The notes beneath the pieces are model-generated. The model saw nothing but the letters and a program-made list of their open reading frames with translations, was not told the DNA's origin and ran no database searches. This document shows, in pieces, positions 1,931 through 39,875 of a stretch of DNA of 64,000 nucleotides. The stretch's first letter is position 1, and each line of letters starts with the position of its first letter. Source of the DNA: Paracoccaceae bacterium (GTDB taxonomy: Bacteria > Pseudomonadota > Alphaproteobacteria > Rhodobacterales > Rhodobacteraceae); assembly GCA_018223085.1 (NCBI GenBank), contig JAAEZB010000002.1, positions 1 to 64,000 of the forward strand, read 5' to 3'. The translations under genes and the position numbers were made by a program.

Positions 1931-2064
1931 TTAACCCGCACGCTGCCTTAACCATCGCGCGCGCGGTTAAACCGGTCCTTTTGCCAAACCCGCACCGACG
2001 CAATACCGACGTAATACATACGCGATGCAGATGTGCGTTTTCCCAGTCGTTTCAGGCGTTAACC
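1931..2064. repeat. Composite intergenic repeat, copy A (11-base tandem units)
   Basis: This AT-richer block lies between the 3' ends of two convergent genes. It holds TTAA-flanked GCACGCTGC (about 1931-1951) and three 11-base units starting at 1992, 2003 and 2014 (GCACCGACG, ATACCGACG, ATACATACG plus two bases each). It ends with GCGTTAACC at 2056-2064. The same parts in the same order occur at 39742-39856, also between convergent genes. No coding potential is apparent. Confidence 0.7.
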
Positions 2065-2093
2065 ATGGTTTTCATGTGCCGATTCGGCTTGCG

Positions 2094-39741: not shown

Positions 39742-39856
39742 TTAACGAAATCGTAACCCCGCACGCTGCGTTAATGGTGCGATTTGCAAAGTCGATACCG
39801 ACGCAATACCGACGTGATACCGACGCGTTACAACCGCCCCTTTTGCGCCGTTAACC
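39742..39856. repeat. Composite intergenic repeat, copy B (three exact 11-base units)
   Basis: TTAA-flanked GCACGCTGC lies at about 39753-39774. ATACCGACG is repeated exactly at 39795, 39806 and 39817 (11-base period). The element ends with CGTTAACC at 39849-39856. Order and sequence parts match the element at 1931-2064. Both lie between the 3' ends of convergent genes. The 11-base spacing would put each unit on the same face of the helix. Confidence 0.75.
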
Positions 39857-39875
39857 TTTCGAGTCGCCCCGCCTC

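Follow-up and report, generated by a model that had tools for sequence, protein, structure and literature searches.

Replication-oriented arrays of 11-bp tandem units in Rhodobacteraceae genomes

Two tandem-repeat elements in the window

Two intergenic elements, at 1931-2064 and 39742-39856 of the window (the whole stretch of 64,000 nucleotides analyzed here, positions 1 to 64,000 of contig JAAEZB010000002.1), contain 11-bp tandem units of the form ATACCGACG-NN. A small ORF and a minus-strand permease-like gene flank the first element, and an acetyltransferase-like gene and a small zinc-ribbon-like gene flank the second; the neighboring genes were named from their translations by inspection. 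An earlier note on this DNA had described both elements as lying between the 3' ends of convergent genes and as sharing an upstream block, 11-bp units and a tail. The convergent setting was seen at both places, and the shared parts were found as follows.

1931..1953, plus strand: upstream block of element 1, TTAA-GCACGCTGC-TTAACC (TTAA-GCACGCTGC-TTAA is 1931-1951)
1992..2035, plus strand: array of element 1, four 11-bp units, GCACCGACGCA, ATACCGACGTA, ATACATACGCG and ATGCAGATGTG, of which the second is exact and the first, third and fourth are degenerate
2036..2042, plus strand: CGTTTTC, 3' of the element 1 array and at the same place in other copies of the source genome
2057..2064, plus strand: tail box of element 1, CGTTAACC
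2081..2086, plus strand: tail box of element 1, GATTCG, which includes a GANTC site and lies beyond the coordinates of the earlier note
39742..39774, plus strand: upstream block of element 2, TTAA ... GCACGCTGC-GTTAA (GCACGCTGC is 39761-39769)
39795..39827, plus strand: array of element 2, three exact units, ATACCGACG-CA, ATACCGACG-TG and ATACCGACG-CG, followed by a degenerate unit at 39828-39838
39850..39865, plus strand: tail of element 2, GTTAACC (39850-39856) and then GAGTC (GANTC type)

The two-unit pattern ATACCGACG-NN-ATACCGACG matched the window four times with at most three mismatches, against 0.06 matches expected. A blind lag scan of the window returned these two places at a period of 11 and nothing at the other periods tried, which bears out the exact 11-bp period claimed before.

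Copies, anatomy and placement of the arrays

The earlier note had made its reading depend on further copies in the genome and on conservation in related species, and both were found. The source genome (3.0 Mb in 145 contigs, ~89% complete) contained 148 two-unit matches with at most three mismatches versus 0 for the reversed-pattern control, one array yielding one to three matches. On the window's contig a third array lies at 73.1 kb, and the distances between arrays are 37.8 and 33.3 kb. Among 24 genomes of the same genus, 21 held 61-215 matches with at most two mismatches. The other three (G005, G009 and G013) held 0-2 matches; since arrays are missing or nearly so there, their role would be dispensable or replaceable. 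In Shimia aestuarii DSM 15283 (G023), which belongs to the genus of the source genome (Shimia in the GTDB sense), the 1.57-Mb contig NZ_FOTQ01000001.1 carries 43 arrays after exclusion of three single-match chance hits, and a lag scan of this contig gave 38 sites at period 11 versus 0-2 at other periods (22 being a harmonic). In a scan of named genomes, the three-unit form was present in Roseovarius, Pseudooceanicola, Silicimonas, Boseongicola, Sedimentitalea, Amylibacter and others. All of its carriers are Rhodobacterales as far as named, and those in the Rhodobacteraceae are scattered among genera.

Among the papers searched, none contained the array sequence or anything similar. No array was matched among the PLSDB plasmids (two chance 23-bp matches at E=4) or the INPHARED phages, and a plasmid or phage origin was discarded on these grounds, with the reservation that the DNA queries were short, so that diverged arrays could be missed. 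An RNA element was discarded as well: Rfam gave no match to the array element, and folding of the arrays, which hold direct repeats only, revealed nothing unusual (z-scores -0.2 to -1.6).

Each array consists of three to five head-to-tail 11-bp units. The copies can be aligned over the array alone, and their flanks are unrelated apart from short boxes at variable distance. Downstream, GATTCG occurs within 90 bp of 17 of the 43 S. aestuarii arrays, against 0.7 expected and 0 upstream, and GTTAACC accompanies 13/26 arrays of the source genome and 15/43 of S. aestuarii, against 0.1-0.2 expected. Upstream, CTTAA is found at 15 S. aestuarii arrays (1.7 expected), and GC[AG]C[GC]..TTAA at 9/43, compared with 0.9% of background windows. 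All 11 occurrences of the combined tail GTTAACC-N(0-16)-GATTCG on the S. aestuarii contig adjoin an array. GANTC is the CcrM methylation site, and the TTAAC of the tail box resembles a CtrA half-site; the GTTAACC...GANTC tail, which stands on the same strand as the arrays, could tie them to cell-cycle methylation. Two loci of the source genome, L002 and L005, are near-identical over more than 100 bp including their flanks, a likeness that suggests a recent copying or conversion event.

In S. aestuarii, whose genes were called with a simple home-made caller, 42/43 arrays are intergenic. Convergent gaps hold 15 of these 42 arrays, compared with 108 of all 813 gaps of at least 50 bp, a ~2.7-fold enrichment, and divergent gaps, which contain promoters, are depleted (5/42 arrays versus 224/813 gaps, or 28%). 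The proposed bias to convergent gaps therefore stands as an enrichment but amounts to a preference only: tandem genes flank roughly half of the arrays. In these tandem gaps, 10 arrays point with the genes and 12 against them.

The arrays are also more evenly spaced than expected by chance. Their mean spacing in S. aestuarii is 36 kb with a coefficient of variation (CV) of 0.58, versus 0.98 +/- 0.14 for random intergenic gaps (P=0.00015). In a second species, represented by a 2.38-Mb contig (G004), the CV is 0.76 (P=0.043 against a uniform null, a rougher test than in S. aestuarii), and array density counted in 200-kb steps is flat from the contig ends to the dif-like site described below. To compare individual sites, we used 49 loci of other species or genera that could be placed by synteny on the S. 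aestuarii contig. Eight of them have their array within 500 bp of an S. aestuarii array, against ~1.4 expected, and at the remaining loci the sites have turned over between species. Between species, no clean insertion junctions could be resolved, the empty sites compared being too diverged.

One array of S. aestuarii, in valS (L145 and NZ_FOTQ01000001.1 near 628074), is read in frame as part of the coding sequence for a variable loop of valyl-tRNA synthetase. It swaps out the loop with little change in length and is not an insertion. In a relative (L074), valS lacks the array, and the gap 1.26 kb downstream carries one on the same strand. This single case prompted us to consider local relocation more generally, which was unsupported: 7/49 loci have an array 0.5-2.5 kb from that of S. 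aestuarii, against an estimated ~5.4 expected.

Orientation of the arrays relative to replication

The arrays keep almost always to one strand with respect to replication. Judged by GC skew within 5 kb, 42/43 arrays of S. aestuarii lie on the C-rich (lagging) strand, as do all 30 loci (27 distinct arrays) of the source genome, 22/24 single loci from species of the same genus and 73/80 loci of the named-genome scan in other genera; GC skew serves here as a proxy for replication direction, as it does everywhere but in G004. By comparison, permuted 9-mers of equal composition were on the lagging strand in just 56% of cases (56:44), on which ground a composition artefact was rejected, and the array unit outside arrays showed a strand ratio of 4:3.

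In G004, a dif-like site, TTAGCGCATAATATGTATTATGTAATTT, lies at C1:1496664 (L256), where both GC skew and the KOPS octamer GGGNAGGG switch strands. To the left of this site the arrays are distributed 21 minus to 3 plus, and to the right 15 plus to 3 minus. Since array strand, GC skew and GGGNAGGG switch together at the dif-like site, the arrays, read as CGTCGGTAT, point from origin to terminus, like KOPS. The wrong-strand arrays (3 + 3) are too few for fitting a gradient of strand bias toward the terminus. The single-contig genome G104 is less polar, with 16/23 arrays on the C-rich strand by 3-kb skew. By region, 16/19 arrays are on the minus strand at 0.15-2.1 Mb and 7/7 on the plus strand from 3.8 Mb round to 0.1 Mb, and the array strands are mixed in the stretch from 2.5 to 3.7 Mb.

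The synteny set allowed replication to be separated from gene direction, because 15 of its 49 loci have their genes flipped relative to replication. At 14 of these 15 the array keeps to its own genome's C-rich strand and is inverted with respect to the genes; a few of the skews are near zero. At one locus (L016) the array lies in the gap that also holds one in S. aestuarii, at a projected distance of 20 bp, and both array and skew run the other way relative to the genes. The arrays thus flip with replication and not with genes, which is the strongest sign of selection on orientation itself. Together with the 12 versus 10 arrays in tandem gaps, these loci also dispose of a gene-orientation effect. 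Strand polarity, not placement in convergent gaps, is the defining property of the arrays; neither this near-absolute orientation nor the even spacing had been part of the earlier note.

In the window itself, GC skew is negative throughout positions 1-64000 (-0.08 to -0.18) and GGGNAGGG is almost entirely on the minus strand. The window therefore lies in one replichore, and both of its arrays are oriented as expected. On the S. aestuarii contig, GC skew is patchy between 1.0 and 1.57 Mb, with several sign changes, and the array strand mostly tracks the patches; the patchiness suggests inversions.

Unit types, known systems and interpretation

By luck, the reversed pattern that we used as a control matched in three other genera, revealing 11-bp arrays with different units. 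The unit is NNNNCCATACG in G116 and GCAGCCNNANN in G260. In a survey of 249 genomes from 248 genera, the CCGACG type was found in about 12 genera, the CCATACG type in 10 genera with at least three matches and the GCAGCC type in one genus, and a second type in the same genome never went beyond a stray match. Arrays with other units were located in G116, G195, G098, G185, G124, G225, G145, G180, G155, G166 and G260 (L272-L295 and L316-L335). In 39 of 43 such loci, a few of them repeats of one array, they lie on the C-rich strand, and none is inside a gene. With a different unit in place in other genera, constancy of sequence, from which the earlier note had argued, is not the key feature. A binding protein that co-evolves with its sites would be expected to leave an equal period, placement and polarity combined with a new recognition sequence, and the occurrence of different units in one layout across genera suggests a direction-marking system on bacterial chromosomes that has not been described.

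Few sequence systems that tell the cell the direction of a chromosome arm are known, KOPS, read by FtsK, and the SRS of SpoIIIE being the clear ones. Like the arrays, these are polar in each replichore and switch at dif. KOPS, however, is a single 8-mer, whereas the arrays are multi-unit, intergenic, evenly spaced, built from a genus-specific unit and unrelated in sequence. GGGNAGGG itself is strongly polar in S. aestuarii (189 versus 18), and FtsK-gamma was detected in 44/44 genomes tested with similar scores, with or without arrays and for all unit types. As FtsK-gamma was present in every genome tested and normal KOPS exist, the arrays are not KOPS themselves and are very unlikely to be an FtsK motif. 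The octamers termed AIMS are strand-biased chromosomal sequences thought to impart architecture, and their abundance and strand bias rise toward the terminus (PMC5993296). The arrays share with AIMS a leading/lagging strand bias (42/43, 30/30, 22/24 and 73/80 in the four sets above) but are ~44 bp long and show no rise in abundance toward the terminus, as judged from the flat 200-kb counts of G004 only. REP and BIME elements are likewise intergenic, present in many copies and prone to avoid promoters, and differ from the arrays in having a palindrome or hairpin and in lacking their nearly absolute replication polarity. Two families of protein-binding sites resemble the arrays in layout. In the type II plasmid centromere R1 parC, of a kind that sits beside parM/parR on plasmids, 11-bp direct repeats are bound head to tail by ParR; the arrays are tandem 11-bp direct repeats too, but dozens of them are scattered along the chromosome, with none found on PLSDB plasmids. 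Pho boxes and other sites of the OmpR/PhoB family have a 7-bp core and a 4-bp spacer, which gives a head-to-tail 11-bp step; unlike these, the arrays are not at promoters, and their orientation tracks replication instead of genes. The analogy between a ~7-bp core with a ~4-bp spacer and the binding spacing of tandem winged-helix (OmpR/PhoB-like) proteins may serve as a lead only.

The array system is real, widespread and oriented with replication. The arrays look functional, and their distribution fits the level of the chromosome rather than that of the gene, in keeping with the chromosome-level function supposed in the earlier note. From this distribution, the most likely mechanism, whose chance we put at about even (a probability of roughly 0.5), is that the arrays are head-to-tail binding sites giving replichore direction to a chromosome-level process separate from FtsK-KOPS. 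A sequence-specific protein would bind the units head to tail. It is plausible that one protein, as a protomer or a domain, would occupy each helical turn on one face of the DNA, and the resulting asymmetric complex would convey the origin-to-terminus direction along the replichore. Candidate processes would be the loading or orienting of a translocase or loop extruder, and chromosome organization or segregation during replication. The specificity of the protein would have shifted between genera and the arrays would have shifted along with it. In a fuller and more tentative form, the arrays may belong to an undescribed chromosome-orientation system of the Rhodobacteraceae, in which a dedicated DNA-binding protein of fast-changing specificity reads 11-bp arrays placed every few tens of kb, always in one orientation to replication, the two having co-evolved to give at least three recognition types (CCGACG, CCATACG and GCAGCC cores) in ~23 of the 248 genera sampled.

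Other explanations account for parts of these observations. A REP-like or single-strand mobile element that an enzyme copies or inserts into the template of the lagging strand, the preference of IS200/IS605-type transposases, would leave polarity as a by-product of insertion, and would agree with the strand bias, the similarity of copies within a genome, the near-identity of L002 and L005 over more than 100 bp and the turnover of sites between species. We nevertheless consider it unlikely, as the arrays have no hairpin or fixed ends (their flanks are unrelated and the distance to the tail box varies), the valS array replaces a variable loop with little change in length, the spacing is more even than chance and the unit is exchanged as a whole from one genus to another. 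The asymmetry of head-to-tail arrays and their strict orientation with respect to replication would also be expected of polar fork barriers or pause sites, where a tightly bound array either is tolerated only if it faces the way that allows the replisome through or pauses forks deliberately. Tus-Ter sites, however, cluster at the terminus, whereas the arrays are spread over whole contigs and whole replichores with no build-up at the terminus (the flat 200-kb counts of G004), which makes such a role distinctly unlikely.

The shared polarity with GGGNAGGG and the shared switch at dif would suit the arrays serving FtsK as a second or alternative orienting sequence, an idea rendered improbable by the polarity of ordinary GGGNAGGG in the same chromosome and by the presence of FtsK-gamma at similar scores regardless of arrays or unit. 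That the arrays are sites for a transcription factor or 3'-end signals of transcripts is quite improbable: their intergenic position, their enrichment in convergent gaps and an 11-bp step like that of Pho-box type sites speak for it, but they show no orientation preference relative to genes, their orientation is set by replication, promoter gaps are depleted and RNA structure is absent. An account in which the polarity arises passively, through mutational strand bias on a neutral repeat, would draw on the slightly C- and A-rich unit, and is very improbable indeed given the near-even strand ratios of 9-mers of the same composition and of the unit outside arrays. If arrays do give direction to a chromosome-level process, a second direction-marking set, evenly spaced, array-shaped and with genus-switching units, would point to a new chromosome-organizing protein and would provide a natural experiment in the co-evolution of one protein with dozens of genomic sites. 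The idea is directly testable in culturable marine bacteria.

Flanking genes were clustered with the regulator's own gene in mind; the large clusters were ABC transporters and SDR-type enzymes and contained no candidate. KfrA_N was essentially absent from the genomes and does not track arrays. In one genome, a second, partial FtsK-gamma match stands beside the main one (G171:C1:315222-316089), as if the 3' end of ftsK had been duplicated.
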